41,405 bases of DNA, taken from assembly GCA_903970125.1 (NCBI GenBank), contig CAJCHW010000098.1:1-41405 (forward strand), read 5' to 3'. This document shows positions 12,069 through 31,593 of the stretch, piece by piece. Below the pieces are notes generated by a model. It ran no database searches. It was not told the origin of the DNA and worked only from the letters and a program-made list of their open reading frames with translations. Position 1 is the first letter of the stretch. Every line of letters begins with the position of its first letter. The position numbers and the translations under genes are program-made. Source of the stretch: Chlamydiota bacterium (GTDB lineage Bacteria; Actinomycetota; Thermoleophilia; Solirubrobacterales; Solirubrobacteraceae).

Positions 12069-12112
12069 TTCACGAGCTTTTTTCGTGATCATCACAGTTC
12101 GTTCACATCTGG
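12069..12112 (+). promoter_or_regulatory. Pho-box-like 11-bp tandem array upstream of pstS1
   Basis: Four in-register 11-bp units: TTCACGAGCTT, TTTTCGTGATC (poor), ATCACAGTTCG and TTCACATCTGG. The last two are the best matches to a TTCACA-type PhoB/PhoP direct-repeat site. The array lies between the divergent secretome locus and pstS1, 64 bp upstream of the pstS1 ATG and in the same orientation. If the upstream divergent gene really starts at 12067 or 12073, the first unit abuts or overlaps its start. Confidence 0.6.
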
Positions 12113-12176
12113 AGCCTGGCCTCTGCCGAGACTGCTGCTCCCAGCACCTTCGTGGCTCCGCGGCGGGCGAATTCTC

Positions 12177-13088: not shown

Positions 13089-14060
13089 GTGAGCCGGGGA
13101 GCGTCGGACTGGCGTGTGGAGTGGCTGCTGCGCGCAATCACGATCTCCGTGCTCGTGGTCATAGGCCTGATCGCAGCCGCGATCCTGATCGAAGCCTGGC
13201 CGTCGTTTGAGCACAACGGCATCCGCTGGTTTTTTCCGGGAGGCGATGTCGATCAGCAGCTGAAGGCAATGATCACGGGGCCGCAGGAACCGGCCCGCTA
13301 CAACTGGCACTTTCGCGGCTGGCCGTTGATATGGGGGACCATCCTGACGTCGGGCTTTGCCGTGATCTTCGCCCTGCCGCTCGCGATCCTCGCCGCGATC
13401 TTTATCGTCGAGATCGCACCGGCGCGGGTGCGACGCGTGGTCGAGCCCGCGGTCTGGCTGCTCGCCGGCGTTCCCTCGGTGGTCTACGGGCTCGTCGGTC
13501 TGCTCGTGATCGTGCCGTGGGTCGAACACGACCTGATTTCAAAAGCACAGAAGCACTCCGTCGACTACGTCGTGCAGCTGACCGGCGAAAACGTCAGCGT
13601 GGCCACCGCGATCCTGACCGTGATGATCCTGCCGATCATGATTGCCCTGATCGTGCGCGCACTGCAGACGGTGCCGCGTACGTGGACGGAGGGCTCGGTG
13701 GCGCTTGGCGTCAACCGCTGGCGCACGATCCGGCGCGTGTCGCTGCGCGCGGCCCGTCCGGCCATCATCGCGGCTGCCGTGCTGGCGATGGGTCGCGCGC
13801 TGGGCGAGTCGATCATGCTCTCGATGGTGTCGGGCTCACGTGGCTTTGCCGCCAATCCGCTCGACGGGGCGACCTTCTTCTTTGAGCCCGTGCGGCCGCT
13901 GGCGGCCACGATCATCGACTACGCGGAGGGCATCTCGGTGGCGCCACTGCGGCACACGCTGTATGCGATGGGGGCTGTGCTGCTCGTGTCCACTGCTCTG
14001 TTCTCGCTTGCCGGTTGGGCCGTCAAGCAGCCGCTGAAGCGCTACGGGATCGGAACCTGA
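13089..14060 (+). CDS. pstC: Phosphate ABC transporter permease PstC (copy 1)
   Basis: A 323-residue, six-helix membrane protein with a GTG start. The first hydrophobic helix spans roughly residues 14-36, followed by a long extracytoplasmic segment and then the permease core. PstC/PstA-family signatures are LAGVPSVVYGLVGL and the EAA cytoplasmic loop ALGVNRWRTIRRVSL (about residue 205), which contacts the ATPase. GRALGESIMLSMVSG near the end is also typical. With PstA it forms the channel for phosphate. It sits between pstS1 and pstA1 in the first pst operon. Confidence 0.93.
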   Translation: MSRGASDWRVEWLLRAITISVLVVIGLIAAAILIEAWPSFEHNGIRWFFPGGDVDQQLKAMITGPQEPARYNWHFRGWPLIWGTILTSGFAVIFALPLAILAAIFIVEIAPARVRRVVEPAVWLLAGVPSVVYGLVGLLVIVPWVEHDLISKAQKHSVDYVVQLTGENVSVATAILTVMILPIMIALIVRALQTVPRTWTEGSVALGVNRWRTIRRVSLRAARPAIIAAAVLAMGRALGESIMLSMVSGSRGFAANPLDGATFFFEPVRPLAATIIDYAEGISVAPLRHTLYAMGAVLLVSTALFSLAGWAVKQPLKRYGIGT

Positions 14061-14089
14061 GCAGGCTGGCCGCCCGCTACATCAGCACA

Positions 14090-15139
14090 ATGGAAGGCGC
14101 ACTGAACGCAACGGATTCGTCCACGCTCGGGGTCTCCGGCGCGCGCAAACCGCCTGCAACGCTGCGGCGCTCGCAACGTCCGCGCGAGCGCCTGGCCGGC
14201 TGGCCGATCGCCGACCGCGTGGCGTGGGCGGCCTGCTGGGTGGTTGGCGTTGGAGTCAGTCTGGTCACCGCGGCGATCGTGCTCTTGATGGCCGTGAAAG
14301 GCATCGCGTACCTCCATCCGGCCCTGCTCTTTGAACACCCAAGCGCCGCGGTCGCACAGAGCCAATCCGGCGGATTCCTGGACCCAATCGAGGGAACGCT
14401 GCTGCTGACCGCGGTTGGCACCGCGATCGCGGCACCTCTGGGCGTCGCGATCGCCGTGTGGCTGCACGAGTACGGCCGGCCCGCAGGCCTTGCACGGGCT
14501 ACGGAATCGGCGATTGAAATGACAGCGGGCGGGCCGAGTGTGCTGTTTGCGCTGTTCGGGCTGATTCTGTTCGCCCGTCCAGTGCTGGCCTTCCTCTCGC
14601 AGACGTCAGCCGGAGGATCGGTGTCGGGGAGGTCATTTCTCACCGCCGGTGCGGTGTCCTCGCTGCTCGCCCTACCGCTGGTAGTGGGGGCAACGCGCGA
14701 GGCCCTGGCGCAGCTTCCGGCGCGCCTGCGCGAGGCCTCACAGGCGCTGGGTAAGACAAGGGCGCGCACGATCCGCAAGGTCTTGCTGCCGTCAATCCGC
14801 CCGGGGATCGCAGCCGGCGTGGTGCTGGGTATGGGCCGGATCATCGGCGACACCGCAATCGTGATCTTCGTGTTGGGGGCAACGCTGCATCTGACCCCCG
14901 CAGGTGGTCTGCCCGGGCTGTCGGCGCTGCGCGGCGAAGGGACGACCCTCACAGCTTATGTCCGCTACAACTCGCCGGCGGGGGAAGGGCTGGCGCCGAA
15001 CAAGGCCTACGCCGCCGCGTTTGTGCTCATGCTGATCGTGGTGGCACTGAACTTTGCCGTCGTGCGGCTGGGATCCGGAAGCCGGCGAAAGCGCCCGTTC
15101 GCGCGCTGGCGACCTGCCCGCGCCGGAAGCGCGCAGTGA
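14090..15139 (+). CDS. pstA: Phosphate ABC transporter permease PstA (copy 1)
   Basis: The start at 14090 (MEGALNATDSS, 349 residues) avoids overlap with pstC; the frame is open back to 14015. A polar N-terminal stretch of about 45 residues precedes the first helix (VAWAACWVVGVGVSLVTAAI). The permease signature MTAGGPSVLFALFGL and the EAA loop ALGKTRARTIRKVLLPS are present, as is GMGRIIGDTAIVIF. The tail is basic. It pairs with PstC1. Its TGA overlaps the start of pstB1 (GTGATGA). Confidence 0.92.
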   Translation: MEGALNATDSSTLGVSGARKPPATLRRSQRPRERLAGWPIADRVAWAACWVVGVGVSLVTAAIVLLMAVKGIAYLHPALLFEHPSAAVAQSQSGGFLDPIEGTLLLTAVGTAIAAPLGVAIAVWLHEYGRPAGLARATESAIEMTAGGPSVLFALFGLILFARPVLAFLSQTSAGGSVSGRSFLTAGAVSSLLALPLVVGATREALAQLPARLREASQALGKTRARTIRKVLLPSIRPGIAAGVVLGMGRIIGDTAIVIFVLGATLHLTPAGGLPGLSALRGEGTTLTAYVRYNSPAGEGLAPNKAYAAAFVLMLIVVALNFAVVRLGSGSRRKRPFARWRPARAGSAQ

Positions 15140-16149
15140 TGAACCAAGACCCACGTTTAGCGCCGCCGGTTCGCCGCATCATCCCGCGGCAGGCGGGCAC
15201 GGTCGTCGAGCCCCGGTCGGAGCCCGCGCCGAGCGCTGCAGCGGCGGTGGCGTCCGCTGCGCAGCCGGCGGTGGAGCCGGGGGTGCAATCAGGAGCGTGG
15301 CAGGACCCGGTGGACATGCCCGCGCCGCCGCGGGCGCCCACAACTACCCACTCCAACGTGGTCGAGCGGATGCGACTTGAGTCGGTCTGGCTGGCGTACG
15401 GCGACCGCTGGGTCGTACGAGACGTCAGCCTGCCCGTGCGCCAGGGAGAGGTGCTCGCGCTCATCGGCGCATCGGGCTCCGGCAAGACCACCTTGCTGCG
15501 ATCGCTCAACCGGCTCACCGAGATCACAGCGGGTGCGGCTCGGGCGGGACACATCACGCTCGACGGCGAGGAGATCGACGGCTTGGAGGCCAACGATCTG
15601 CGCAGACGCATCTCGATGGTTTTTCAACAGCCCAACCCGTTCCCGATGAGCGTCTTCGAGAACGTGGCGTATTCACTACGCGAGGAGCGCGCGGCGCGGC
15701 GACGCAGACGCCGTGCGGGACTACCGGGCCGCGGGCCGCGCGGTGATCAGTTGCGTGCGTCGGTCGTCGAGGCGCTCCGCCGCGCCGGCCTGTACGACGA
15801 GGTCGGCGACGACCTCGACCGGCCCGCACTGGGGCTCTCGGGCGGCCAGCAGCAGCGACTCTGTATCGCACGCTCGCTGGCGGCGGGACCCGAGGTGCTT
15901 CTGCTCGACGAGCCCTGCTCGGCTTTGGACCCGATCTCAACCGCCACGATCGAGGAGTTGATCGTGGGCCTGCGCGAGAGCGTTGCCGTGGTGATCGTCA
16001 CGCACAACCTGCAGCAGGCCGTTCGCGTAGCCGATCACGTTGCCTTCATGCACCTGGGCGAGCTCGTCGAGTACGGCCCAAGCCAGCAGATCTTCGAGCA
16101 CCCGCGACAGCAGCGCACGCGCGATTATGTCAGCGGGGCATTTGGGTGA
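15139..16149 (+). CDS. pstB: Phosphate ABC transporter ATPase PstB (copy 1), N-terminally extended
   Basis: ATPase of the first Pst system, starting at ATG 15139 or GTG 15136 in the overlap with pstA. Walker A GASGSGKTT, Q-loop FQQPNPFPMSVFENV, signature [15 protein letters not shown], Walker [14 protein letters not shown] and the H-loop VTHNLQQA are intact. Two oddities stand out. An Ala/Pro-rich extension of about 75 residues precedes the ABC domain, where standard PstB has almost none. In the helical domain the usual sequence is replaced by an Arg-rich insertion (AARRRRRRAGLPGRGPRGD). It is followed without a gap by a lipoprotein gene (GTGA overlap). Confidence 0.93.
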   Translation: MNQDPRLAPPVRRIIPRQAGTVVEPRSEPAPSAAAAVASAAQPAVEPGVQSGAWQDPVDMPAPPRAPTTTHSNVVERMRLESVWLAYGDRWVVRDVSLPVRQGEVLALIGASGSGKTTLLRSLNRLTEITAGAARAGHITLDGEEIDGLEANDLRRRISMVFQQPNPFPMSVFENVAYSLREERAARRRRRRAGLPGRGPRGDQLRASVVEALRRAGLYDEVGDDLDRPALGLSGGQQQRLCIARSLAAGPEVLLLDEPCSALDPISTATIEELIVGLRESVAVVIVTHNLQQAVRVADHVAFMHLGELVEYGPSQQIFEHPRQQRTRDYVSGAFG

Positions 16150-17791: not shown

Positions 17792-18817
17792 CTACAGCGA
17801 GTTCAGCGTGCTCCGGTCGCCCTTCAAGACAACCTTCGGTAGCGGCGCAAAATCAAGTGCCGCGCCGAAACCCTGTCCGGGTCCGATTGCATATTCGATG
17901 AACTTGGTCAGTTCTTCCTTCACTGTCGTGTTCGTGGGAACAATGCAGTAGGTGAACGTCGAGATCGGGTAGGCGATCTTGTACTTCTTGGACGGGTCAA
18001 CGATGTGCTCTTCGTTGTTCGCCGGCACCTTCTTGATCTGCGACGCGGCGTTTTCGATGTTCTTGATGTTGGGATACTCGAAGTTGCCCGCGCTGTTCTC
18101 GATCGCGGCAGCTCCAAGCTGGTGCGAGACCAGGTAGGAAGCGGCGACGTAGCCGATCGCACCGTTGGTTTCAAGGATCACGCTGGTGACGCCCGAGTTG
18201 CCCTTTGCGCCGACACCGGTGGGGAAGCTCACCGCAGTGGACGTTCCCACCTTCGTCGCCCATTCCTTGCTGATGTCCGAGAGGTAGTTGGTGAACGCGT
18301 AGGTATCCCCAGACCCATCGCTGCGGTAGACGACCGTGATCGGCGTGCTCGGCAGGCGTTCCTTGGGGTTGAGCTTCGCGATCGCGGGGTTGTTCCAGGT
18401 CGTGATCTGGCCGAGGTAGATCTCAGCGAGCACAGGACCCGACAGCCGCAGGTTGCGCACGCCTTGCAAATGGAAGCCGATGCCCGTGGCGGTCAACGCC
18501 CACGGGATCTCGTCACATCCGTTGCACGCGGTCTCCTGGGTCGAGGTCAGCGGCGCGTCGGAGGCGCCGAAATCGACGGCCCGTGCCGAGATCTGCGTGA
18601 TCCCCGCGCCGGATCCGACGGAGGCATACGTGACTTCGTCGCCGGTCTTGATCTTGAATCCGCCTATCCAATAGCCTTCGAGCAAGGGCGCAATCAGTGT
18701 TGAGCCGGCGCCCGTGATCGGGGCGGCAGCGGCCACAGCCGCGCCGCTGAAGAGCCCGGCCACCAGGCATGCGACCAGGGCCGAGGCGGCGAGGAGTGGG
18801 TGAGCTTTTCGTAGCAA
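17792..18817 (-). CDS. pstS: Phosphate ABC transporter substrate-binding protein PstS (copy 2)
   Basis: The TTG at 18817 is chosen because AAGGAGG lies 4 nt upstream and the signal peptide follows directly (MLRKAHPLLAASALVACLVA); the frame is open further but with no export signal at its start. The 341-residue product has the PstS phosphate loops GAGSTLIAPL, SVGSGAGI and RSDGSGDTYAFTNYL, and ends in the PstS-typical IEYAIGPGQGFGAALDFAPL. SALVAC could be read as a lipobox, but the hydrophobic stretch continues beyond it, so secretion or lipid anchoring is undecided. It is divergent from pstC2 across 191 bp, with two Pho-box-like repeats, and ends in a strong terminator, so it is transcribed alone. 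Confidence 0.93.
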   Translation of the reverse strand: MLRKAHPLLAASALVACLVAGLFSGAAVAAAAPITGAGSTLIAPLLEGYWIGGFKIKTGDEVTYASVGSGAGITQISARAVDFGASDAPLTSTQETACNGCDEIPWALTATGIGFHLQGVRNLRLSGPVLAEIYLGQITTWNNPAIAKLNPKERLPSTPITVVYRSDGSGDTYAFTNYLSDISKEWATKVGTSTAVSFPTGVGAKGNSGVTSVILETNGAIGYVAASYLVSHQLGAAAIENSAGNFEYPNIKNIENAASQIKKVPANNEEHIVDPSKKYKIAYPISTFTYCIVPTNTTVKEELTKFIEYAIGPGQGFGAALDFAPLPKVVLKGDRSTLNSL

Positions 18818-18821
18818 GGAT

Positions 18822-18828
18822 CCTCCTT
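18822..18828 (-). promoter_or_regulatory. Ribosome-binding site deciding the TTG start of pstS2
   Basis: AAGGAGG on the minus strand, 4 nt before the TTG at 18817. A near-consensus Shine-Dalgarno here, with no ATG or GTG nearby, supports a TTG start. Confidence 0.85.
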
Positions 18829-18876
18829 GGTGGGGTGATGTAGTCCAGCGGCGCGAGCATTCCACCAGGCCCCGGG

Positions 18877-18898
18877 TGCGCTGTGACAATTTTGTGAA
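18877..18898 (-). promoter_or_regulatory. Pho-box-like tandem repeat upstream of pstS2
   Basis: Minus-strand units TTCACAAAATT and GTCACAGCGCA, 11 bp apart and oriented toward pstS2, ending about 60 bp upstream of its start. They match the TTCACA-type direct repeats found before the other pst promoters here. Confidence 0.6.
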
Positions 18899-19008: not shown

Positions 19009-20025
19009 ATGAGCGGCGGATCCGGATCTCTTTCCCCGGCGCTCGGGCCTGCCGCGGCCGCCCGCGGCCCCTGGTCGGCGGGTCGGGCTCGAGGAACCAA
19101 GACCGATCGCTTCGGCGACGCATTGCTGAAAAGCCTCTGCGCGGCGGCGTCACTACTCGCCGTCGTGATCCTCGGCGCGATCTTCTACCAGGTCCTCGAT
19201 GGCGCGAGCGCCGCCTTCTCCCAGCTTGGTATCGGCTTCCTGGTCCACGAAGTCTGGCAGCCCAACTTTGGACACTTCGGCGCGGCCACATTCATCTACG
19301 GGACCGTGGTCGTTTCGCTCGTGACGATGGTGATCGCGGTTCCACTGGCGATCTCGATAGGCCTCTACCTGAGCACGACTGCGTCGGGCCGCGTGCGCAG
19401 CGTGGTCGGCCCGCTGGTCGAGATGCTGGCGGCGATCCCCAGCGTGATCCTCGGCTTCTGGGGGCTGATCGTGCTTGCGCCCTTCCTGCAAGCTCATGCC
19501 GAGCCGTTTCTACACAGCACGCTGGGCTTCTTGCCGCTTTTCGGCAAGGGCGAAACAACCGGCCTCGGCCTCTTTACTGCCAGCCTGATCCTGACGATCA
19601 TGGTGGTCCCGATCGTCGCTGCGATCAGCCGCGATCTTTTTCTGACCGTGCCCAAGGATCTGCAGGACGGGGCGATCGCGCTCGGGGCCACGCGCTGGGA
19701 GGTGGTGCGCGGCGTGATCCTGCCCTCCGCGGCCTCCGGCGTAGTCGCTGCGGCGTTTCTGGGCCTGGGCCGTGCGCTCGGCGAGGCAATCGCGACTTTG
19801 CAGGTCATCGGCGGCGGCAACTTCATTCACGCCTCGCTGTTCGGGACTGGCGGCACCCTGGCCAGCCGGATCGCCGAAGATGCGCTTGGGACGCCCTACG
19901 CGCTGCAGCTGTCGGCGGTGTTCTACCTGGGGGCGATTCTGCTCGCCATGGAGCTTGTGTTGAACCTGGCAGCACAAGCGATCATGCGACGCTTTGACGC
20001 GTTCAGCGCCGTGGCCGCGCGATGA
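19009..20025 (+). CDS. pstC: Phosphate ABC transporter permease PstC (copy 2)
   Basis: A 338-residue permease starting at ATG 19009. A polar N-terminal region of about 40 residues precedes the first helix (AAASLLAVVILGAIF). PstC features are the extracytoplasmic segment GFLVHEVWQPNFGHFGAATF, the motif LAAIPSVILGFWGL, the EAA loop ALGATRWEVVRGVILP and GRALGEAIATLQVIGG. It resembles PstC3 far more than PstC1. It is the first gene of the pstC2-A2-B2 operon, separated from its binding-protein gene, which is divergent. Its end overlaps pstA2 by 4 bp. Confidence 0.95.
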   Translation: MSGGSGSLSPALGPAAAARGPWSAGRARGTKTDRFGDALLKSLCAAASLLAVVILGAIFYQVLDGASAAFSQLGIGFLVHEVWQPNFGHFGAATFIYGTVVVSLVTMVIAVPLAISIGLYLSTTASGRVRSVVGPLVEMLAAIPSVILGFWGLIVLAPFLQAHAEPFLHSTLGFLPLFGKGETTGLGLFTASLILTIMVVPIVAAISRDLFLTVPKDLQDGAIALGATRWEVVRGVILPSAASGVVAAAFLGLGRALGEAIATLQVIGGGNFIHASLFGTGGTLASRIAEDALGTPYALQLSAVFYLGAILLAMELVLNLAAQAIMRRFDAFSAVAAR

Positions 20026-20999
20026 CCGAGCTTCCCCATCCCCCGGCCTCGTCAGCGGCCCCGCTCCAGCCGGCGGCCGACGATGCTCCCCCATTCGACC
20101 TGCTTGCTGGTCGGAGTTTTGACCCATCCGGGCCGCTGGATCCGACCGGTCATTTGCGCGGGCGCCAGCGCCTCAGTCGGATCATGCAAGCGATTCAGAC
20201 GGGCTCGGCGATAGTTGCTCTGGCGGTGCTCGCGATCGTGATCTACTCGGTCGCGGCACACGGGGCAGGCGCGCTGAGCGTGGGGTTTTTCACCCAGAGC
20301 CCTCCGGTGAACCCGGAAGGAGCGGGCGGGGGAATCGCGCCCGAGCTTGTGGGAACCGTGTTGTTGATGATCGTTGCCACCGCCATCGCGCTGCCCACGG
20401 GAATACTGATCGCGCTCTACTTGACTGAGTTTGCGCCGCCCAAGGTCGCAAGCGCGCTGCGCCTGATTCTCGATCTGCTCAACGGCGTCCCTACGATCCT
20501 GATCGGGCTCGTGCTGTTCGGTCTGCTGGTGGCCGGGCATGGGGAGACCGGCTTCTATGCCTCGCTGGCGCTTGCGATCATCATGCTGCCGCTGATAGCA
20601 CGAGCCGCTCAGGAGATGCTGCTTTTGGTCCCCACGGGGATGCGCGAAGCTGCTGACGCGCTGGGGGTCACCCGCTGGCGCACCGTGCGCGGCGTGGTAT
20701 TGCCAAGCGCGATCGGGGGCATCTTGACGGCGACCATACTCGCGGTCGCGCGTGCAGCAGGAGAGACCGCGCCGCTGATTCTGCTTTCCGATGTATTCGG
20801 TCGCGCGGTGACGTTCGGGATTTTTGGGCAGGCCCTGCCCAACATCCCGGTCTACATCCTTGAGGCCTCCGAGCAGGCCTCACGCTACGGCTTCGCCCGT
20901 GCTTGGGGCGCGGCGTTCGTGCTGCTGGCGTTCATCGCGCTGGCCAGCCTGGGCGGACGGGTGCTGATGGCGCGAAGTCGTGCAAAGCTTGTGCAATGA
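20022..20999 (+). CDS. pstA: Phosphate ABC transporter permease PstA (copy 2)
   Basis: A 325-residue permease; its ATG overlaps the pstC2 stop (ATGA). About 55 Pro/Ala-rich residues precede the first helix ([18 protein letters not shown]). The PstA signatures [19 protein letters not shown] loop [16 protein letters not shown] and [14 protein letters not shown] are all present. It forms the membrane channel with PstC2 and overlaps pstB2 by 4 bp. Confidence 0.95.
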
Positions 21000-22051
21000 A
21001 TCCGAACGTGACGCCACCATCGCAAAGCGCTTTCGGCGCCGTCGAGGCAGAGTTCGATGCGCTCACGTCGGGCGTCGCGGCGCTCAGTGCCAATGCTGAG
21101 ACCGCAACGCCGCCCGAGACCGCGTCGGCTGACGCCACACAGACCCAGCCGCACCCGAGCGGTGGCGCCAAACCGCGCATTCGTATCGGCAGTGCGCCGG
21201 TGCACGCGTCCGCGATGCAGTCCGCTGAGAGCGCCACGGTCGATGCGCTCTCGGGCGCAGGCCGCGCGGGCGCGGCACCGGCGCGAGAGTCGATCTTCGA
21301 CGTCCGCGAGATGTCCGTCTCCTACGGCACCAACACCGCGATCTCCGGGGTCACGATGCAAATACAGCGCAACATGATCACCGCGCTGATCGGCCCGTCG
21401 GGATGTGGCAAGTCCACCTTTCTGCGCAGCCTCAACCGTATGAATGACTCGGTAAAGGGCTTCTCGATCAGCGGGCAGGTCCTCTATCACGGCCACGACG
21501 TATACGCGGGCAGCGTGGACCCGGTTGAGGTACGCCGCCGCATCGGCATGGTATTCCAGCGCCCCAACCCCTTCCCCAAGTCGATCTACGACAACATCGC
21601 GTGGGCGCCACGTAACCTGCGCATGAAGGACGACCTCGACAGGCGTGTCGAGTACGCCCTGCGCGGCGCGGCACTGTGGGACGAGGTCAAAGACCGGTTG
21701 CACGCAAGCGCGCTGGGCCTCTCCGGCGGCCAGCAGCAGCGCCTGTGCATTGCGCGGGCGATCGCAATCGAACCGGACGTGCTGCTGCTTGACGAGCCTG
21801 CGTCGGCACTGGATCCGATCGCGACGCTTTCAATCGAGCAGCTGATGCAAACGCTGAAGCACCGCTACACGATTGTGATCGTCACACACAACATGCAGCA
21901 GGCTGCGCGGATCGCCGATCGCACCGCGTTCTTCAGCCTCGAGGCGACCAGCCGTGCAGGCGTGCTCGTGGAGTACGACGACACCGATGTGATCTTTACG
22001 CGGCCGCGTGACCCGCGGACCAGCGATTACGTGACCGGCCGCTTCGGCTGA
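20996..22051 (+). CDS. pstB: Phosphate ABC transporter ATPase PstB (copy 2), N-terminally extended
   Basis: The ATG at 20996 overlaps the pstA2 stop (ATGA), giving 351 residues; the open frame begins further upstream inside pstA2. An Ala/Thr/Pro-rich extension of about 95 residues with no recognisable domain precedes a complete PstB: Walker [11 protein letters not shown]-loop [15 protein letters not shown], signature [13 protein letters not shown], Walker [14 protein letters not shown] and [13 protein letters not shown]. The C-terminal part carries a small insertion around [16 protein letters not shown]. The last gene of the pst2 operon; 23 bp separate it from the convergent zinc-ribbon gene. 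Confidence 0.95.
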
Positions 22052-22074
22052 GCCGCGCCGCGCTTGGAGCTCGG

Positions 22075-22434
22075 CTAGGCGCCGATCGCCTCGGTCGGGA
22101 CGTGGGTGAGCAACGGCCGCCCACACTGCCAGCAGAAGGCGGCGCCGCTGCTGTAAGGCGCCGCGCACGAAGGACACGCCCCGGCGCTCCTGGTTTCACC
22201 CATATGCAGGATCCGTTCGACCTCACTGAGCTCGCTGTCGGCCTCCTGCAGGGTGGCCGCTCGACTCACGAGGACATCGACGCGGACGTGGTTGCGGACG
22301 GCCATCTCGTAGGCGAGTCCGCCCAGATCCCACTGCAGCTCGGCCACGCGCGCGGTCAGCTCGTCGCGGCGACGGGCGAGGTCGAGCGTGACCGAATCGG
22401 ATGAGCTCGGGCTTGCGCCGGTAGGCGTCATCAC
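22075..22434 (-). CDS. Small coiled-coil protein with C-terminal zinc ribbon
   Basis: A 119-residue product; the GTG start overlaps the stop of the upstream gene (GTGA), with an ATG one codon in. A charged helical region (about 17-75) probably forms a coiled coil. The C-terminus is a zinc ribbon with CPSC (87-90) and CWQCG (101-105), in the spacing of its two neighbours' ribbons. No membrane segment is present, so it is probably cytoplasmic. It is cotranscribed with the membrane zinc-ribbon gene. Function unknown; an adaptor that pairs with the neighbouring ribbons is a guess. Confidence 0.75.
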   Translation of the reverse strand: MMTPTGASPSSSDSVTLDLARRRDELTARVAELQWDLGGLAYEMAVRNHVRVDVLVSRAATLQEADSELSEVERILHMGETRSAGACPSCAAPYSSGAAFCWQCGRPLLTHVPTEAIGA

Positions 22435-23210
22435 TTCTTCCCTTTGGAATTGGTGGAGCTTTCGCCGGATTCCGCTTCGTTTTCTTCACCGAAGAAGTGC
22501 CCCGTGAAGTGGCCGTGCTGGTAGCCGGCGCCGTGCCCCTTGGAGCCGATCTTCACCGTTGGGTTCGTAGGCTTTACGGCCGTCGCGGACGGCGCCTTTG
22601 AGGAACCCTTGGCGGTCGTCGTGGCGGCCTTCTTGGCCGGCGTGGCAGCGCTCGCGGCGGCCTGTTCGGTGCTCGCGGCGGCGCCGCTGCCTGCGCTTGA
22701 AACCACAGTCGGGATGTAGGTAGGGGTGGTCTTCGACGACGAGCCGTTGTCCAGCCTCCCGATCACGACCCCGACCCCCATCGCCAAAAGCAGCGTCGCG
22801 ATTCCCGCGATCAACGTGCCGTTGGGGCCGATCTGAAATCGGCTTCGCCGAGGGGGCTCCGCGGGCCCACCCGAGCCGGCCGCTGCCGGGGCACCCATGA
22901 GCACTGGGCGAGCGTGCGCGAGGCGCTGTCCACATTCCACGCAGTAGCGCTGGTCGGGAGCAGCGCCCGCCCCGCAGACAGGACAGCGATCAGCTCCCGA
23001 GGGCGCCAGCGACGGCGTGACCGTGACCGCGTGAGCCGGCGACGAGTCGGTGCCGACCACGGGCAGAGGTGCAGTCGTGCCCTCGTCGACCGCAATCCTG
23101 CCGGCGCCTTGCGCCGGAGCGCCGGTGGCGGGACCGGGCGGGATGCTCATGGGCGGGCCGGCGGAGTCCATTGTCTCGGTGGGTTTGCTCGCTTCCATTT
23201 CCTTGGGCAC
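22431..23210 (-). CDS. Zinc-ribbon membrane protein with Ser/Thr/Ala-rich outer part
   Basis: A 259-residue product with a GTG start at 23210 (ATGs at 23198 and 23171 are alternatives). A Pro-rich N-terminus is followed by a zinc ribbon, CPVC (76-79) and CVEC (90-93), then one membrane helix (about 129-151, LIAGIATLLLAMGVGVVIG). The remainder, rich in Ala, Ser, Thr and Lys with a His/Gly patch (GHGAGYQHGHFTGHFFG), is probably outside the cell. The ribbon shares DQRYCVECG with the divergent phosphoesterase-like protein, including 21 identical bases. A Pho-box-like repeat upstream is oriented toward this gene. Function unknown. Confidence 0.78.
   Translation of the reverse strand: MPKEMEASKPTETMDSAGPPMSIPPGPATGAPAQGAGRIAVDEGTTAPLPVVGTDSSPAHAVTVTPSLAPSGADRCPVCGAGAAPDQRYCVECGQRLAHARPVLMGAPAAAGSGGPAEPPRRSRFQIGPNGTLIAGIATLLLAMGVGVVIGRLDNGSSSKTTPTYIPTVVSSAGSGAAASTEQAAASAATPAKKAATTTAKGSSKAPSATAVKPTNPTVKIGSKGHGAGYQHGHFTGHFFGEENEAESGESSTNSKGKK
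22936..22956 (-). repeat. Inverted repeat shared with the divergent zinc-ribbon gene
   Basis: These 21 bp recur as an exact inverted copy at 23545-23565. Both encode the second half of a zinc ribbon (DQRYCVE) in the two divergent genes. This points to duplication of the ribbon module or gene conversion between the pair. Confidence 0.8.
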
Positions 23211-23341
23211 ACGCAGTCGTGTCCTGCTGGGTTTGCGGCTCGCGAAGGTGCGGTCGCGTGGGCACCGTAGACGGCGAAGCGTAGCAACGCCCAGGGCACG
23301 GTTGGCGTCATGTCGTGTCGAGTATCGGACGGCCGATCACT

Positions 23342-23363
23342 CCAGTTGTGAACAGACTGTTAC
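23342..23363 (-). promoter_or_regulatory. Pho-box-like repeat and dyad between divergent zinc-ribbon genes
   Basis: Minus-strand units GTAACAGTCTG and TTCACAACTGG are 11 bp apart, oriented toward the 23210 gene. The same region (23344-23367) is a near-perfect dyad: AGTTGTGAACAG, one spacer base, CTGTTACAACT, with a single extra G in the left arm. A direct-repeat regulator and a dimeric repressor would therefore read the site differently. Confidence 0.5.
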
Positions 23364-23383
23364 AACTTCGCAAAGCGGTTCGG

Positions 23384-23395
23384 TGTACCGGTACA
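23384..23395. promoter_or_regulatory. 12-bp perfect palindrome, possible operator
   Basis: TGTACCGGTACA is perfectly self-complementary and lies 24 bp before the ATG of the phosphoesterase-like gene, a normal place for an operator. No other copy was noticed in the window. Confidence 0.35.
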
Positions 23396-23419
23396 GTGCG
23401 CCGGGATACTTGGTGTGAC

Positions 23420-25204
23420 ATGGCCAGCGGTTCGAGCGTTGACAGCCCCGCGCAGGGCCAAAAGCAGTCGCAGCCGCCACCGGTGGGGAGGTCCGCCGGC
23501 GGGTTCGAGCCAAGATGCGCCAATTGCAGCGCTGCGCTCGCTCACGACCAGCGCTACTGCGTGGAGTGCGGTGCACGAACCGGACCGCTCCCGCATACCA
23601 TTGCCGAGCGCATCGCTGCCGCAACACGTCTGCGACTCACTTCGGCGGGGTCGCCCGCAAGCGACGCCGACTCAAATGCCGGGCACGTCGCTACGGAGCC
23701 GACGCGGGCTGCCTGGGCGACGCGTCTGTTGCCCGGCGGGTTGGCGCGCTTCGCGCCGTCTGCGATGGCGGTGTCGGTTATGTCGCCGCTGTGCTTCGGC
23801 GTGGTCATTGGTGCCGAGGTGAGCCCGGCGACCCAAAGCCAGGGACCAATACGGGTAGCCGTCACCGCGCCAACCACCAACTCAAATGCGCCTGCGGTGG
23901 GCGCCTCGGCGGGCGAATCCGCGACTTCCTCCGGCGTTGCGGGGAGTGGCACAGCTGAAGCTCCCGGGGCGGCCTCGAAAAACGCGGCCTCGACCGGCAA
24001 CTCGGCACCAGCCAACACCCGCAACAAGGGCTCAAAGGGCATGTCGGGCGCTGGGACCACACCGCCCGCACCAACAGCGTTGCCCCCGATCAAACACGTC
24101 TTTTTGATCGTGCTTTCCGACCAGGGCTTTCAGCAAAGCTTCGGCGCCGGCGCAACGGCGCCGTATCTGTCGCAAACCCTGCCCAAAGAGGGCGAGTTGG
24201 TTGAGTCCTATTACGCAGTCGCCGGCGGCGAGCTTGCAAATGAGGTGGCGCTCATCAGCGGTCAGGGACCAACGGCTCAACTTGAACAGGACTGCCCGAC
24301 GTACTCGGAAATCGTCCCTGGGACCCCCGCTGCTGAAGGGCAGGTGATCGGCACCGGCTGCGTGTACCCGAAGGCGACAGACAGCCTCGCCAATGAGCTC
24401 ACCAGCGCAAACGACACGTGGACCGCGTACATCGAAGGTGAGGGAGTCGGCGAAGGCGGGCCCGGCGGCTGTAGCCACCCGACCCTCGGCAGTCCCGACA
24501 GCGAACTGGCTCCGACGACCACTGACAACTATGTGACCTGGCGCAACCCCTTCGTCTACTTCCAGTCGCTGACCGAGTCCCCGGCCTGTGGCGGCAACGA
24601 CCTGGGGATCGCCGCGCTTGGCACCGATCTGACCAGCGCCGGCACAACCCCCACGTTTGCCTACATCGCACCGGACCCGTGCGACGACGGCTCCGAAGTG
24701 CCGTGCGCCGCAGGCAAGCCGGCCGGCCTCGCGCCCGCCGAAGCGTTCCTGAAGCGGATCGTGCCCGAGATCAAGTCCTCGCCGGCCTACAAGCACGGTG
24801 GGCTGATCGCGATCACCTTTGACCAGGCGCCCCAGAGCGGCCCCAACGCCGACTCCACGGGGTGCTGCATGAACGCCCCCTATCCAAACGCGCGGAGCAC
24901 GCCAACGTCGACCACATCCACAACCACGACGGCGACTGGCACGAGCCCCACCTCGTCCTCGACAACGACCACGACGGCGACTGGCACGACGGGCGTCGAA
25001 GGCGCGACGGTCGGCGGCGGGCACGTCGGTCTGCTGCTCATCTCCAAATACGTCAAGCCAGGCACACGCGCCCTCACAGGGCAGTACAACCACTTCTCAC
25101 TGCTGCGCACGATCGAGAACCTGTTCGGCCTGAAGCCACTGGGCTACGCGGGACAGCCCGGGCTTCTGGCATTCGACAAGAGCGTGTTCAACGCGTACAA
25201 GTAG
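23420..25204 (+). CDS. Zinc-ribbon membrane protein with degenerate phosphoesterase domain
   Basis: The ATG at 23420 gives 594 residues; the open frame begins at 23315. Order: zinc ribbon CANC (33-36) and CVEC (47-50), a hydrophobic segment (about 110-131), an Ala/Ser/Thr/Gly linker, then a phosphoesterase-family domain (PF04185 type: acid phosphatase/phospholipase C) from about residue 224. Family landmarks are IKHVFLIVL, EVALISGQGPT, LIAITFD, GHVGLLLIS and NHFSLLRTIENLFGL. However the metal motif, normally MENRSFD, reads LSDQGFQ, and the usual DE is DQ, so the active site is altered. A Thr/Ser-rich insertion (about 495-530) carries a 22-bp direct repeat. Location is probably membrane-anchored with the domain outside. 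Phosphate release from organic esters is possible; loss of activity is equally possible. Confidence 0.82.
   Translation: MASGSSVDSPAQGQKQSQPPPVGRSAGGFEPRCANCSAALAHDQRYCVECGARTGPLPHTIAERIAAATRLRLTSAGSPASDADSNAGHVATEPTRAAWATRLLPGGLARFAPSAMAVSVMSPLCFGVVIGAEVSPATQSQGPIRVAVTAPTTNSNAPAVGASAGESATSSGVAGSGTAEAPGAASKNAASTGNSAPANTRNKGSKGMSGAGTTPPAPTALPPIKHVFLIVLSDQGFQQSFGAGATAPYLSQTLPKEGELVESYYAVAGGELANEVALISGQGPTAQLEQDCPTYSEIVPGTPAAEGQVIGTGCVYPKATDSLANELTSANDTWTAYIEGEGVGEGGPGGCSHPTLGSPDSELAPTTTDNYVTWRNPFVYFQSLTESPACGGNDLGIAALGTDLTSAGTTPTFAYIAPDPCDDGSEVPCAAGKPAGLAPAEAFLKRIVPEIKSSPAYKHGGLIAITFDQAPQSGPNADSTGCCMNAPYPNARSTPTSTTSTTTTATGTSPTSSSTTTTTATGTTGVEGATVGGGHVGLLLISKYVKPGTRALTGQYNHFSLLRTIENLFGLKPLGYAGQPGLLAFDKSVFNAYK
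24923..24989 (+). repeat. 22-bp direct repeat in the Thr/Ser-rich insertion
   Basis: Identical 22-bp copies at 24923-24944 and 24968-24989 encode TTTATGT-like tracts in the phosphoesterase-like protein. This is a low-complexity region that could expand or contract by slippage. Confidence 0.8.
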
Positions 25205-25256: not shown

Positions 25257-25289
25257 TTCACAAGCTCTTCACAGGTCGATCACCAATTT
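25257..25289 (+). promoter_or_regulatory. Three-unit Pho-box-like array upstream of the orphan winged-helix gene
   Basis: Three consecutive 11-bp units, TTCACAAGCTC, TTCACAGGTCG and ATCACCAATTT, in the 229-bp gap between the phosphoesterase-like gene and the winged-helix gene, oriented toward the latter. It is among the best Pho-box candidates in the window. The rest of the gap holds several copies of GCACGCACG in both orientations (near 25241, 25302 and 25351) and nothing else recognised. Confidence 0.62.
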
Positions 25290-25730: not shown

Positions 25731-25775
25731 ATCCCAGCGCGCGTGCAGCCGGACGGCGATACTTCGCCGCGTGCT

Positions 25776-25910: not shown

Positions 25911-26942
25911 GTGCCGCATCGCAGGACCGTCTTGCTCGCCGGCCTGATCCCGCTGACCGTCGGCGCGTGCGGATCAAGCTCCAGCTCTCCCGCAACAGAC
26001 TCAAAACAGCTTGTGGGTGCGGGCAGCACGCTCGTGGCCCCGCTGCTGTCGCAGTGGCAGCCGGAATACAACAAGCAGGCGGGAGTCACCGTGGCCTACA
26101 GCGCGATTGGCTCCGGGGGGGGTATCGCCCAGATAACCGCCCGCACCATCGACTTCGGCGCCAGCGATGCACCGCTCAGCGAAGACCAGTCCAAGGAAGC
26201 AAACGGCGTGGTGCAGATCCCGTGGGCGCTGGCAGCCACCACCGTGGCCTACAACGTGCCCGGCGTGCCCACCGAACTGAAGCTCACGGGACCGCTGCTG
26301 GCCGAAATCTTTCTGGGCAAGGTGACGACGTGGAACGACCCAAGGATCGCCGCCGCCAACCCCGGCGTCACCTTGCCGGCGCTGAAGATCATCCCGGTGC
26401 ACCGCTCCGACTCAAGCGGCGACACCTACGCATTCACCAACTACCTCTCGCACGTGAGTCCTGAATGGAAGGCATCGGTGGGCACGTCGACGGAGGTCGC
26501 GTTCCCCGGCGGGATCGGCGGCAAGGGCAATTCCGGTGTCGGTGGGGCGATCGCCTCGACTCCCGGCGCAATCGGCTACATCGCGATCTCCTACGTGCTC
26601 GCCAACAAGCTCGACTTCGCGCTGATCGCCAACGCCGCCGGCAACTACCCGGTCCCGGATGTGGTGAGCATCGAAGCGGCCGCCAAGACCCTCAAAAGCG
26701 TGCCCTCCAACAACGAAGTCTCGATCGTCGATCCACCCGCCTCAGCCCCGAACGCTTACCCGATCTCGACCTTCACCTACGCGCTCGTGCCACTGAAATC
26801 ACCGAAGGCGGACACGCTCAAGGCGTTTTTGAAATGGGCAATCACGGCTGGGCAAAAGTTCGGGCCAAAGCTCGATTTCGCACCGCTGCCGGCTGAGATC
26901 CTGTCGGCGGATGAAACAACGATCGCAAGGATCGAAAACTAG
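25911..26942 (+). CDS. pstS: Phosphate-binding lipoprotein PstS (copy 3)
   Basis: A 343-residue protein with a GTG start supported by AAGGAGG 5 nt upstream. The signal peptide ends in a clear lipobox (LTVGAC), so the protein is lipid-anchored, unlike PstS1. Phosphate-loop motifs are GAGSTLVAPL, AIGSGGGI, DFGASDAPL and RSDSSGDTYAFTNYL; the loop has Ser where PstS2 has Gly (RSDGSG). The C-terminus (LKWAITAGQKFGPKLDFAPLP) is typical. It is closely similar to PstS2. First gene of the pst3 operon; pstC3 follows after 60 bp. Confidence 0.95.
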   Translation: MPHRRTVLLAGLIPLTVGACGSSSSSPATDSKQLVGAGSTLVAPLLSQWQPEYNKQAGVTVAYSAIGSGGGIAQITARTIDFGASDAPLSEDQSKEANGVVQIPWALAATTVAYNVPGVPTELKLTGPLLAEIFLGKVTTWNDPRIAAANPGVTLPALKIIPVHRSDSSGDTYAFTNYLSHVSPEWKASVGTSTEVAFPGGIGGKGNSGVGGAIASTPGAIGYIAISYVLANKLDFALIANAAGNYPVPDVVSIEAAAKTLKSVPSNNEVSIVDPPASAPNAYPISTFTYALVPLKSPKADTLKAFLKWAITAGQKFGPKLDFAPLPAEILSADETTIARIEN

Positions 26943-27002
26943 GAGGCTTGCCCCAGGCTGGGCGATCGCCGCAAGCGATCGTCGCACCTGCGGGCGCCGA
27001 AC

Positions 27003-28010
27003 ATGACCACATATTCCTCGGGTACCCCTGTCGCCGCGGTGCGCCTCTCAAGCGCGCGGCGCACTGCCGTCGACCGTGCGGGCGATCCGATCCTGCGCGG
27101 GCTGACCTGGCTGGCGTCGGCAGTGGCGATCGTGCTTTTCGTGGCCCTGGTCTACAAGGTCTGCGATCTGGCGGGCGAATCGTTCTCTCACTATGGGCTT
27201 TCGTTCATCGGACGCGAGACCTGGAACCCGAACCCGAGCACCAAGACTTACGGGTTCGGCGCCGCCGACTTCCTCTTCGGCACCGCCGTGACCTCGTTCT
27301 TTGCACTGCTGATCGCAGCTCCCACCTCGGTCGCAATCGCGCTGTTCTTGACCGAGCTTGCGCCGCGCCGGGCGCGCCGGCCGGTGGCGACGCTGGTGGA
27401 ACTGCTTGCCGCGATCCCGAGCGTCGTGCTCGGGCTCTGGGGCCTGATCGTGCTTGCGCCGATCATGAGCTCGACGATCGAGCCAGCGCTGCACGCCGTG
27501 CTCGGCTGGATCCCCCTGTTTTCGGGCACGCCGTCAAGCGTGGGCATCCTCACTGGAGTCGTGATCCTCACGATCATGACCGTGCCAATCGTTTCGGCAG
27601 TGATGCACGAGCTGTTCGGCACCGTGCCCGGGGAGCTCAAGGAGGCGGCGTTGGCACTCGGTGCGACCCGCTGGGAGATGGTGCGCATGGTGATGCTGCC
27701 GTACGCACGCTCCGGCATGGTGGGAGCGGTCATCCTCGGGCTCGGCCGCGCCCTCGGCGAGGCGATCGCGGTCGCGCTGGTGGTGGGCAACGCCGACGCA
27801 ATCCACACTTCACTGTTTGAACCGGGCTCCACGCTGGCCAGCCACATCGCCGCGGAGTACCAGGGGGCAACGACGAGCCTGCAGATCTCCTCACTTGCGT
27901 ACCTCGCTGTGATCCTGCTGGCACTCTCGGTGATCGCCAACCTGATCGCGCGGCTGATCGCGCGGCGGGCGCCCCTGCGCCTTGGCGCTGGCGTGGGAGG
28001 CCCCGAATGA
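27003..28010 (+). CDS. pstC: Phosphate ABC transporter permease PstC (copy 3)
   Basis: A 335-residue permease with an ATG start. The features parallel PstC2: SFIGRETWNPNPSTKTYGFG outside the membrane, LAAIPSVVLGLWGLIVLAP, EAA loop ALGATRWEMVRMVMLP and GRALGEAIAVALVVG. Six membrane segments are predicted after an N-terminal stretch of about 35 residues. It pairs with PstA3, whose start overlaps its stop by 4 bp. Confidence 0.95.
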   Translation: MTTYSSGTPVAAVRLSSARRTAVDRAGDPILRGLTWLASAVAIVLFVALVYKVCDLAGESFSHYGLSFIGRETWNPNPSTKTYGFGAADFLFGTAVTSFFALLIAAPTSVAIALFLTELAPRRARRPVATLVELLAAIPSVVLGLWGLIVLAPIMSSTIEPALHAVLGWIPLFSGTPSSVGILTGVVILTIMTVPIVSAVMHELFGTVPGELKEAALALGATRWEMVRMVMLPYARSGMVGAVILGLGRALGEAIAVALVVGNADAIHTSLFEPGSTLASHIAAEYQGATTSLQISSLAYLAVILLALSVIANLIARLIARRAPLRLGAGVGGPE

Positions 28011-28912
28011 GCCCTCCAGCACCAACGGCCACGCTGGCTGGTCGGCTCATGGGCGACGTGCGGCTGCGGCGGCGCAGGGCACTCAACCGCACGATGGAAA
28101 CGGTCGCAACGCTGGCGGCGGTTGCAGCGGTGGTGGTGCTCGCGGTTGTGTTCGTGTCGGTCGTGATCAAGGGCATCGGCGCGATCAACCTGGACTTTCT
28201 GATCCACTCAGAAGTGCCCTTCGGTCAAAGCGGCGGCGGCATCGCAAACGCGATCGTCGGCACGATCGTGCTCGTCGCGCTGGCAAGCGCGATGGCGATC
28301 CCCGTTGGGATCCTCGTGGGCCTCCACGCATCGGAGTTTGCCCGCCCGCGCACTGCGGCGGCGGTGCGCTTTGCGCTCGATCTGCTCAACGGCGTGCCGA
28401 CGATCGTCACGGGCATCTTCGTGTTCGGCCTGCTGGTGGTGGGACACACCCAGAGCGGCTATGCAGGCGCATTTGCGCTGGCAATCGTGATGTTGCCAAT
28501 CGTTGCCCGGGCGGCCCAAGAGGTGCTCTCGCTGGTGCCGGCCACCGTCCGCGAGGGCGCGCTCGCACTCGGAGCCACGCGCTGGCGCGCTGTCGTCCGG
28601 GTCGTACTGCCGACTGCCTCCAGCGGCCTGATCACGGGCGCCTTGCTGGCGGTGGCGCGCGCCGCCGGCGAGACAGCGCCACTGCTTTTCACGAGCTCGA
28701 TCCTGACGACGACGGGAGTCTCGACGAATCCCGGCCAGACGCTCGTCTCGATCCCGCTGCGGATATACCAACTCGCCGAAGGCACGAGCCCGTCAGAACA
28801 CTCCGAGGCGTGGGCGGCGGCGTTGCTTTTGATCCTCGCGGTGCTTGCGATCAACGTCGTTGCGCGCGCGCTCTACGGGCGCACCAGAGCGCGGATGGCC
28901 GCGATGCAGTGA
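28007..28912 (+). CDS. pstA: Phosphate ABC transporter permease PstA (copy 3)
   Basis: A 301-residue permease; ATG overlaps the pstC3 stop (ATGA). The signatures are [19 protein letters not shown] loop [16 protein letters not shown] and [15 protein letters not shown]. The N-terminal extension is shorter than that of PstA2. pstB3 starts 7 bp after its stop. Confidence 0.95.
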
Positions 28913-28919
28913 GCCGTCG

Positions 28920-29825
28920 ATGAGCCGCCGCCCTGCGATCTCACCAACGCGCAAAGACCATCCTCGCGGCGCTTGGCCGCCGAGCGGCGCGCGAGCCGGC
29001 GCGCCAGTTGTCACCATGGACGATGTGCCCGAAGCCAGCCTCAGTCCGACGCTGCCCGGCGTGCACAAGCCCGCGCCGAGCGTGCGGATCCGCGGACTGC
29101 GCGCGTACTACGGCGACGCAGAACGAGTGAAGGGCATAGACCTCGACCTCAATGCCAACGAGGTCACCGCGATCATCGGACCCTCAGGGTGCGGCAAATC
29201 GACGATGATCCGCTGTATCAATCGCATGCACGAGGAGATTCCCGGCGCCCGCAGCGAGGGCAGGGTCGTGCTCGACGACGTCAACCTTTACGACCCAAGC
29301 GTCGACGTGATCGCGGTCCGGCGAACGGTTGGCATGGTCTTTCAGCGGCCCAACCCGTTTCCCACGATGTCGATCTTCGACAATGTCGCAGCCGGCCCGC
29401 GCTTGGCCAACAGACGCCGCAGCGATCTACAGGCAGCGGTGCGCACGGCGCTGGAAGGTGCAGGTCTTTGGCAGGAAGTTGCCGATCGCCTGTCGGAGCC
29501 GGCCACCGGACTCTCCGGCGGCCAGCAACAGCGTCTGTGCATAGCGCGCTCGCTGGCCGTCGATCCCGAGGTGATTCTGATGGACGAGCCCTGCTCGGCA
29601 TTGGACCCAACGGCGAGCCTTCGCATCGAGCAGCTGATCGACGAGCTGAAGCGGCGCGTGACGATCGCCATCGTCACGCATAACATGCAACAGGCAGCAC
29701 GAGTGGCCGATCGCACCGCCTTCATGCTCGACGGCGAACTGATCGAGGTCGGCCCCACCCACCACATGTTCACGAGCCCAAGCGACCCCCGCACCGAGGA
29801 CTATGTCACCGGCAAGTTCGGCTAA
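28920..29825 (+). CDS. pstB: Phosphate ABC transporter ATPase PstB (copy 3)
   Basis: The ATG at 28920 (301 residues) begins 7 bp after pstA3; the open frame starts earlier, inside pstA3, and an ATG at 29016 would give a PstB of near-standard length. The ABC domain is complete: Walker [11 protein letters not shown]-loop [16 protein letters not shown], signature [15 protein letters not shown], Walker [14 protein letters not shown] and [13 protein letters not shown]. The end [10 protein letters not shown] is the standard PstB terminus. Its last 23 bp overlap phoU. Confidence 0.95.
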
Positions 29826-30570
29826 CGGACCCTTCGGGGCCTGGGGAGACGGGGCGCCTGCCGCGGCGGGCAGGCCCCACTTCCAGCAGCAGCTGCGCGA
29901 GCTCGAGCAGCGCGCGCTCGGGGGTCTTGACATCGTGGTCGAGCAGCTGGATCGCACGATGGAGTCGCTAGCTCACCAGGACATCGAGCTGGCGGAAATG
30001 GTCATCGCAGACGACGACCGCGTGGACGGCCGCTACATGGAAGTGCACCAAGCCATCCTCTCGCTGCTGGCGCTGCAGGCCCCAGTCGCCGGAGATCTGC
30101 GCCTGGTGGCGGCGCTCCTGCACGTGCTCAAGGCGCTTGAGCGCATGGGCGATCAATGCGTCAACATCGCCAAGGTGATCCCGCTGTCGGGGCGTGAACC
30201 ACCCGTGCGCCACGATGTGCTCGAACGCCTGCTGCGCATGGGCTCGTGCGCGCGCGCCGAGGCCGTGCAGTGCAAGGAGGCATTTGCGACCCGAGACGTC
30301 GTGCTCGCCGAGGATCTCGTGCGCCAGGATCGCGAGATCAACCGGCTCAACCGGGAGATCTTCCGCATGGCGCTTGAGATCGGCGATGATCCGGACACGC
30401 GGGAGTGGGCGATGCACATGATCCTTGTGGCACGCGCGCTCGAGCGCATCGGCGACAACGCCGTGGACATCGGCGAGCAGGTGGTATTCGTCGTCACCGG
30501 GCTCTTCAGTGAGTTCTCGGACTCCTCGCACCTGATGGGCCCGCAGGCGCGCCAGACACCGAAGCCCTGA
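29803..30570 (+). CDS. phoU: Phosphate signalling regulator PhoU
   Basis: A 255-residue helical protein with two PhoU repeats. The first is about residues 28-120 ([20 protein letters not shown] and [21 protein letters not shown]) and the second about 130-235 ([20 protein letters not shown]). The E-R-x-G-D metal-binding motifs are intact in both. PhoU links Pst transport to the phosphate sensor kinase and normally shuts off the Pho response when phosphate is plentiful. The ATG at 29803 overlaps pstB3 by 23 bp; about 25 extra N-terminal residues precede the family start. It is followed by a PhoB-like response regulator, the usual partner, but no kinase gene. Confidence 0.95.
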
Positions 30571-30639: not shown

Positions 30640-30678
30640 CATTCGGCGCGACATCGCACGTCGGCTCAGGTTGTGCTT

Positions 30679-31593
30679 ATGCTGTGCGCAATGACGGCGG
30701 GGACGCAGGATGATGCGATCCAGGGCGCCAGCCGTGGCGCGGCATGGGGGGCTCCGGTACTGCGGGTCGCAGTTCTAGACCGCGACACCGGCTTTATCCA
30801 GGTGCTGTGCAAGCGGCTGGAGCGCATCGGCCTCGAGCATCGCGTGCTTGCCAGCCCCGTGCCGCTGGACCAGCTGGCCTCGATGCGCTTGAGCGCGCTG
30901 ATCGTCGATCTCACGGTGCTCGGCCCGCAGGCGTGGGAGTGGCTGCAGCGCGCGTGCGCCGAGTTGCCGGACCTCGGCGTGGTTGTGTGCACCGGGCCCT
31001 CGACGGTCGCCCAGCGTGTGCGCGGGCTGCGGCTGGGAGCAGACGACTGGATCTCAAAGCCGTGCCATCCCGAGGAGGTCATCGCGCGCGTCGAAGGCCT
31101 CGTCCGCCGCCGCAGCAATTCTTCCGGCAGGGCCGCAAAGGCACCTGTGAGCGCCGGCGAGCTTGAGATCCGCGGCGACCGTTTCCAGGCGTTCGTGCGG
31201 GGGCAGAGCCTGGACTTGACGCGGCGCGAGTTCGAGCTGATCGAGTTGCTTGCGGGCGCCGAAGGGCGCGTGCTTGAGCGGGAGGAGATCTATTCCCGGC
31301 TGTGGGGCTACGTGATGGTCCGCGGCGACCGCTCGGTTGACGTCTTCGTGCGCAAGCTGCGCCAAAAGCTCAAGGCAGCCTCGCCGGGCTGGCGCTACAT
31401 CCACACTCACTTTGGGATCGGGTACCGCTTTGCCGTCGAGGCAGCGGCCAAGCGCTCGGAGGCCGGCCTGCCCGAGGACATCCAGACCACGACCGACGTT
31501 CTCGCTGTCGATGTCGACGCGGTCGCCTTGGGCACGAGTCCCGAGCTCGAGGATCCCAACCTGCAGCTCGCCGGCCTAGCTCACACCGACTGA
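30679..31593 (+). CDS. PhoB-like OmpR-family response regulator
   Basis: About 304 residues; the start is uncertain (GTG 30673, ATG 30679 or ATG 30691), and 30679 is taken because CAGG lies 8 nt upstream. Receiver domain: acidic pair in VLDRDTG, phospho-acceptor Asp in ALIVDLTVLG, Thr in VVVCTG and Lys in WISKP. The output domain is a winged helix (LTRREFELIELL, DRSVDVFVRKLRQKL, YIHTHFGIGYRF). A 50-residue acidic tail follows. It lies directly after phoU and near several 11-bp repeats, so it is the best candidate for the phosphate regulator (PhoB/PhoP/RegX3 type). No histidine kinase is adjacent, as the next gene is convergent. Confidence 0.88.
   Translation: MLCAMTAGTQDDAIQGASRGAAWGAPVLRVAVLDRDTGFIQVLCKRLERIGLEHRVLASPVPLDQLASMRLSALIVDLTVLGPQAWEWLQRACAELPDLGVVVCTGPSTVAQRVRGLRLGADDWISKPCHPEEVIARVEGLVRRRSNSSGRAAKAPVSAGELEIRGDRFQAFVRGQSLDLTRREFELIELLAGAEGRVLEREEIYSRLWGYVMVRGDRSVDVFVRKLRQKLKAASPGWRYIHTHFGIGYRFAVEAAAKRSEAGLPEDIQTTTDVLAVDVDAVALGTSPELEDPNLQLAGLAHTD

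Follow-up and report, generated by a model that had tools for sequence, protein, structure and literature searches.

Zinc-ribbon proteins and a predicted pseudo-phosphoesterase encoded beside Pst phosphate importers without a PstS lipid anchor in Solirubrobacterales

To our knowledge, Pst is among the best-studied importers, and the partners known for it in signalling and accessory roles are, in essence, of the PhoU type. Here we describe three adjacent genes of a different kind, located at positions 22075-25204 of a Solirubrobacteraceae contig (CAJCHW010000098.1, assembly GCA_903970125.1) that was analysed over 41,405 nucleotides (the window). Their products are designated P1, P2 and P3. A preliminary description of this DNA had reported three adjacent zinc-ribbon open reading frames (ORFs) here, two of them with a hydrophobic segment, and this is indeed what the locus contains. 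It had further placed the trio between two pst operons and ascribed the same ribbon module to all three proteins. Pst operons do flank the trio, but the window harbours three distinct pst sets inside 20 kb (12126-31593), referred to as B, A and classic (C). Likewise, each protein carries a CxxC-N11-CxxCG ribbon, but only P2 and P3 share the DQRYCVECG sequence, while that of P1 (SSGAAFCWQCG) represents another subtype.

The trio resembles the classic PstSCAB-PhoU system in its position beside pst genes and in having a PHO-box-like promoter in common with them; PstS of set A scores above the TIGR00975 cut-off. In contrast to that system, the trio consists of ribbon proteins, two of them predicted to span the membrane, tied to Pst with non-lipidated PstS. 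No PhoU domain was detected in P1, P2 or P3 using Pfam. The extracytoplasmic domain of P3 is related by profile and fold to PF04185 enzymes (AcpA 2d1g, PLC-N/PLC-H, plant NPC), from which it differs in that catalytic residues are replaced and the domain is fused to a cytoplasmic ribbon and a transmembrane segment instead of being secreted. SPOR proteins (PF05036) are comparable to ancestral P2 and many type B P2s, where a SPOR or SPOR-like domain follows the ribbon and the transmembrane segment, whereas P2 of the window ends in a short conserved tail. With its predicted hairpin and zinc ribbon, P1 is reminiscent of DksA, which was among the fold matches of P1. However, these matches are weak (E about 0.3-0.6, probability 0.72-0.89, TM-score about 0.5) and no sequence match to P1 accompanies them, so P1 was not accepted as a DksA homologue. 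No NCBIfam model names P1, P2, P3 or P4 (a lipoprotein described below), and nothing relevant on zinc-ribbon proteins linked to Pst in Solirubrobacterales was found in open-access literature.

Genomes of 101 relatives were searched with each trio protein and synteny was then read over the fetched loci. The search yielded 92 distinct P1 sequences, 74 of which are flanked by 3 kb or more on either side and were used for linkage counts. P2 adjoins P1 in 71 of the 74 loci, a count that is not independent of the ribbon since P2 was identified partly by it; P3 lies within 8 kb of P1 in 42, and a pst gene within 3 kb of P1 in 68. Presence of P1 also matches presence of type A/B PstC nearly one-to-one: 38 genomes contain both, 53 neither, 6 only PstC and 4 only P1 (Fisher p=6e-17). 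The six genomes with pst and without P1 include G023, which is 58% complete, and G072, where the contig ends just past P2; in three more (G024, G047, G048) the absence is genuine at the type A locus. Both the co-occurrence in relatives, the lack of which would have refuted the preliminary description by its own test, and the link to phosphate uptake suggested there are thus borne out. Two gene orders are observed. In type A (pstS< pstC>A>B> P1< P2< P3>), pstS is divergent from pstCAB, P1 and P2 are convergent with pstB, and P3 is divergent from P2. In type B ((P3<) pstS>C>A>B> P4> P2> P1> (P3>)), P3 is found in one of two places, upstream of pstS and divergent from it or downstream of P1. In both arrangements the P2-P1 pair stays tightly with the pst operon, either next to it or inside it, and does so in many genera and in several families of Solirubrobacterales. 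Conexibacter sp. DBS9H8 (L155/L215), which can be cultured, is among the relatives with the type A module. Judging from these gene neighbourhoods, the trio is very probably an accessory module associated with type A/B Pst.

A direct repeat points in the same direction. When intergenic regions were compared, words of the GTTGTGA type emerged in promoters of pst and of P2/P3. The pattern TGTGA-N6-TGTGA (11-bp period, one mismatch allowed) has seven occurrences in the window where 1.2 are expected, a number reached in none of 100 shuffles, and all seven sites (12092, 18882, 18949, 23347 for P2/P3, 25258, 25269 and 30623) are situated in pst, trio or regulator promoters. The P2/P3 promoter thus has this PHO-box-like repeat in common with promoters of all three pst sets. 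Over all loci, its density is 0.554 per kb in intergenic DNA flanking pst or trio genes versus 0.139 elsewhere. Spacings of 10, 12 and 13 bp are not enriched in the same loci, and that of 9 bp is slightly raised with small counts. Taken alone, the nonamer GTTGTGAAC shows no enrichment in the window, in contrast to the pair spaced by 11 bp. Among P2/P3 promoters, 11 of 22 regions contain the pattern (at the background rate and with relatedness ignored, p is about 1e-8). The Streptomyces PHO box was described as two 11-nt direct repeats (PMC7866108). It is therefore likely that the trio and type A/B pst genes are under shared Pho control.

The type A set (17792-22051) can be recognised as a PstSCAB importer by the TIGR00975 score of its PstS and by BPD_transp_1 and ABC_tran matches. 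Gram-positive PstS is normally membrane-anchored (PMC7866108). No lipobox was found in PstS of types A and B in 82 ORFs (these comprise some duplicate loci and a few cut N-termini), and classic PstS encoded in the same loci does possess it. From this it may be suspected, though not concluded, that docking is a task of P2/P3 or of P4, a conserved lipoprotein encoded after pstB in type B operons. P4 has no match in Pfam or NCBIfam and shrinks to about 65 aa in genomes of family f3 (L252, L253, L256-L258). Further type B loci with P4 were seen, e.g. L226:6937-7674 and L244:9690-10421. In two genomes with type A pst and without the trio, a small low-complexity lipoprotein is encoded beside pstB (L304:13080-13580, L305:5053-5487).

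P3 (594 aa) probably starts at ATG 23420 rather than at GTG 23315, as given in the preliminary description, since this is where homologues start and since the PHO-box-like site occupies 23345-23366. Its ribbon (CANC-N11-CVECG) is accompanied by a single hydrophobic segment and by a PF04185 domain scoring 35 bits in Pfam (cut-off 23). A fold search with the AlphaFold2 model retrieved 8k3g, 2d1g, 8hav and 9gy2 at E 1e-10 to 1e-11; the best matches in the PDB are AcpA (2d1g, E=1e-10), plant NPC and phospholipases C. To characterise the active site, six positions were scored in 51 aligned proteins: Glu-Asn metal ligands after strand 1, the His-x-Ser nucleophile motif, Asp-Gly-His and Asp-Glu. All six are kept in 11 of 11 stand-alone relatives and in 0 of 40 P3-type proteins, and the Glu-Asn pair is likewise kept in none of the 40. 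P3 of the window has S268 D269, G304 E306, S460 and Q504 at these sites. The same genome codes for a stand-alone relative with a signal peptide (G000:C55, L101:4162-5748), whose motifs VLENESE, HASLDNY, CYDGHE and FDEA correspond to VLSDQGF, GGELANE, CDDGSE and FDQA in P3. In a profile alignment to AcpA (2d1g), the metal-binding QENNSFD motif of AcpA falls at the same place. On the active-site comparison, an active phosphoesterase was rejected as a reading, and the outer phosphoesterase face of the preliminary description is, as an active enzyme, not supported. P3 is thus a predicted pseudo-phosphoesterase. As the fold is retained while catalytic positions are degenerate, it probably binds rather than cuts.

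P1 (119 aa) contains the CPSC-N11-CWQCG ribbon, and its AlphaFold2 model (pLDDT 84.5) shows a helical hairpin (helices 2-36 and 42-70) plus the ribbon; the fold search against the PDB returned no significant match. In 28 aligned homologues, the four cysteines and the DLGG..YEM..R signature are invariant, which means that the ribbon is not a chance occurrence. Ribbon scores in Pfam are nevertheless weak (20-22 bits for P1 and P2 with cut-off 25, 13-17 bits for P3), because the motifs and models are just 23 residues long; in the genome search, the P1 ribbon reached 24-25 bits. P2 (259 aa), whose gene overlaps that of P1 by 4 bp, has the CPVC-N11-CVECG ribbon and one hydrophobic segment, and its relatives possess the tail GxGPGYQKGKFTGNFFGE.

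In the searches made, P1 proper is confined to the Solirubrobacterales, an order of soil bacteria. Outside this order, the class Thermoleophilia contains just a single-copy P1 paralogue (40-65 bits) that is nearly absent from the remainder of the phylum. In many genomes, the gene next to this paralogue codes for a ribbon-transmembrane protein with a SPOR domain (26.2, 23.4 and 21.6 bits, cut-off 21). SPOR or SPOR-like domains are also present in many Pst-linked type B P2s. A Pfam profile search detected none in P2 of the window, and type A P2s are devoid of them. On the basis of these architectures, the P1-P2 pair is predicted to descend from a class-wide ancestral pair, in which P2 often bears SPOR. 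In two genomes, the P2 slot beside P1 is taken by a ribbon-transmembrane protein with a phosphoesterase-like C-terminal region (L232:9796-11502, L235:8466-10076). P2 and P3 therefore resemble two versions of a single architecture whose outer heads can be exchanged.

How might such a module work? Linkage to pst, the promoter element, domain architecture and loss of P3 residues were read from sequence, and the complex and mechanism are inferred from them. P1 would be a soluble cytoplasmic hub, with its hairpin and ribbon binding the cytoplasmic ribbon of P2 next to PstB, and also the ribbon of P3 where P3 has one. P2 and P3 would cross the membrane once, with the N-terminus inside. On the outer side, the tail of P2 (in many relatives, a SPOR domain) would face the wall, and the phosphoesterase-fold domain of P3 would be a non-cutting binder of PstS, of a phosphate ester or of a phosphate polymer of the wall. 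Non-lipidated PstS would be retained or docked at the PstCA permease by the module, or its loading would be signalled to PstB inside, or both; PhoU would not cover this role here. Since catalytic residues of P3 are lost, release of phosphate is a less likely function of the set than sensing it, holding it or handing it over. Assembly of the trio through its ribbons, as suggested in the preliminary description, is doubtful. A ribbon contact between P1 and P2 is plausible, and for a physical complex of P1 with P2 (and P3) we see roughly even chances. The specific role as a PstS dock or loading sensor is put forward tentatively. Equally tentative is the picture of a membrane-spanning Pst complex of non-PhoU type, with the dead phosphoesterase as an outer receptor of phosphate esters or PstS and the ribbon/coiled-coil protein as a signal or tether to the ATPase. 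Taken as a whole, the proposal that Solirubrobacterales possess a lineage-specific Pst importer with an accessory module under Pho control is in our opinion evenly balanced between being right and wrong.

Several observations speak against this proposal. P3 is found near P1 in only the 42 of 74 loci mentioned above. Five type A trio P3s from the same genus (L009, L010, L012, L013, L014) are devoid of the ribbon, which is thus dispensable there. The type B set of the window itself has no adjacent P1 or P2, and type B operons code for lipoprotein P4, a possible alternative dock. The PHO-box-like element is a predicted one, its function being deduced from sequence only. Finally, three genomes (G024, G047, G048) possess type A pst with non-lipidated PstS and no P1, P2 or P3, and no ribbon ORF was found near their type A loci. 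The module is hence not strictly needed for such PstS, and the notion of the trio as a strictly required PstS tether is weakened.

Alternatively, P1-P2 might be a general wall or septum scaffold of SPOR heritage that places Pst/PstS near peptidoglycan without any sensing. The ancestral single-copy pair found across Thermoleophilia, with its frequent SPOR domain, and SPOR-like domains of type B P2s would fit this explanation; yet type A P2s, including that of the window, lack SPOR, and the retained pseudo-phosphoesterase head together with PHO-box-like control point to a phosphate-specific role, which makes a plain scaffold unlikely. It is also conceivable that the genes merely belong to the same phosphate-starvation regulon and act separately, with no contact to Pst, P3 being for example a wall-polymer binder and P1-P2 a stress-signalling pair. 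Such independence would agree with the common PHO-box-like element, with P3 being sometimes distant or absent and with the existence of trio-less type A pst. It appears improbable given that adjacency survives two gene orders and that P2-P1 stays tight to pst across genera and families. Least credible is that P3 is an active surface phosphoesterase that supplies the adjacent Pst with phosphate released from organic esters: despite the PF04185 match above cut-off, the AcpA/PLC-like fold, the pst neighbours and the PHO-box-like promoter, its six catalytic positions are lost or variable, whereas they are intact in the stand-alone relatives, of which one is encoded by this very genome.

Features of the window, including those surrounding the accessory module, are listed in Table 1. 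The type B set spans 12126-16149. The classic set is accompanied by PhoU and the response regulator (25911-31593 in all), and one of the other sets by the PhoU_div gene.

Table 1. Positions of trio, pst and regulatory features in the window.
Feature	Position	Strand	Remarks
PHO-box-like element upstream of pstS-B	12092..12107	-	
PstS, type B set	12126..13049	+	no lipobox; start approximate
PstC, PstA, PstB, type B set	13089..16149	+	
P4	16146..16994	+	conserved lipoprotein (lipobox then CESTQEKS)
PhoU_div gene	16991-17617		
PstS, type A set	17792..18889	-	signal peptide without lipobox; TIGR00975 291 bits (cut-off 205)
PHO-box-like direct repeats between pstS-A and pstC-A	18882-18897 and 18947-18965	+	11-bp period
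PstC, type A	19009..20025	+	
PstA, type A	20022..20999	+	
PstB, type A	20996..22051	+	ATG start; convergent with P1
P1	22075..22434	-	predicted cytoplasmic; helical hairpin (coiled coil), C-terminal zinc ribbon
P2	22431..23210	-	N-terminal zinc ribbon, one transmembrane segment, Ser/Thr/Lys/Ala-rich extracytoplasmic stretch, conserved tail
PHO-box-like element, divergent P2/P3 promoter	23345..23366	+	GTTGTGAACAGACTGTTACAAC
P3	23420..25204	+	zinc ribbon, one transmembrane segment, AcpA/PLC-fold domain with degenerate active site
PHO-box-like elements upstream of helix-turn-helix gene/classic pst set	25258..25284	-	
Classic pstSCAB-phoU (set C)	25911..30570	+	PstS with lipobox; not trio-associated
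PhoU gene of classic set	29803-30570		
PHO-box-like site near response regulator gene	30623-30638		
OmpR/PhoB-type response regulator	30673..31593	+	candidate binder of PHO-box-like element

Just upstream of classic pstS lies a gene for an OmpR-type DNA-binding domain that stands alone, with no receiver (25434-25730); relatives have the same gene next to their classic pst sets (L117, L128, L130, L135). The pst region is followed by genes for a CHAD-domain protein and polyphosphate kinase (32774-35625), which extend the phosphate/polyphosphate cluster, and further downstream by those for a regulator of the Fur family and for a metal importer of the ABC-3 type, probably of zinc or manganese (37636-41405). 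The source genome (G000) contains a second cassette, of type B, with its own P1, P2 and P3 on C2 (L098). A third, partial one lies on a short contig (G000:C116, L099), where the P1 match is without the ribbon end.

The results caution against annotating proteins of this kind, although assigned to a phosphoesterase family, as phosphate-scavenging enzymes in soil metagenomes. More generally, unnamed ribbon proteins and a predicted pseudo-phosphoesterase appear to form a conserved, Pho-linked module tied to Pst types without a PstS lipid anchor. The module prompts one to ask how a cell of Gram-positive type retains and reads a binding protein that is not lipidated.

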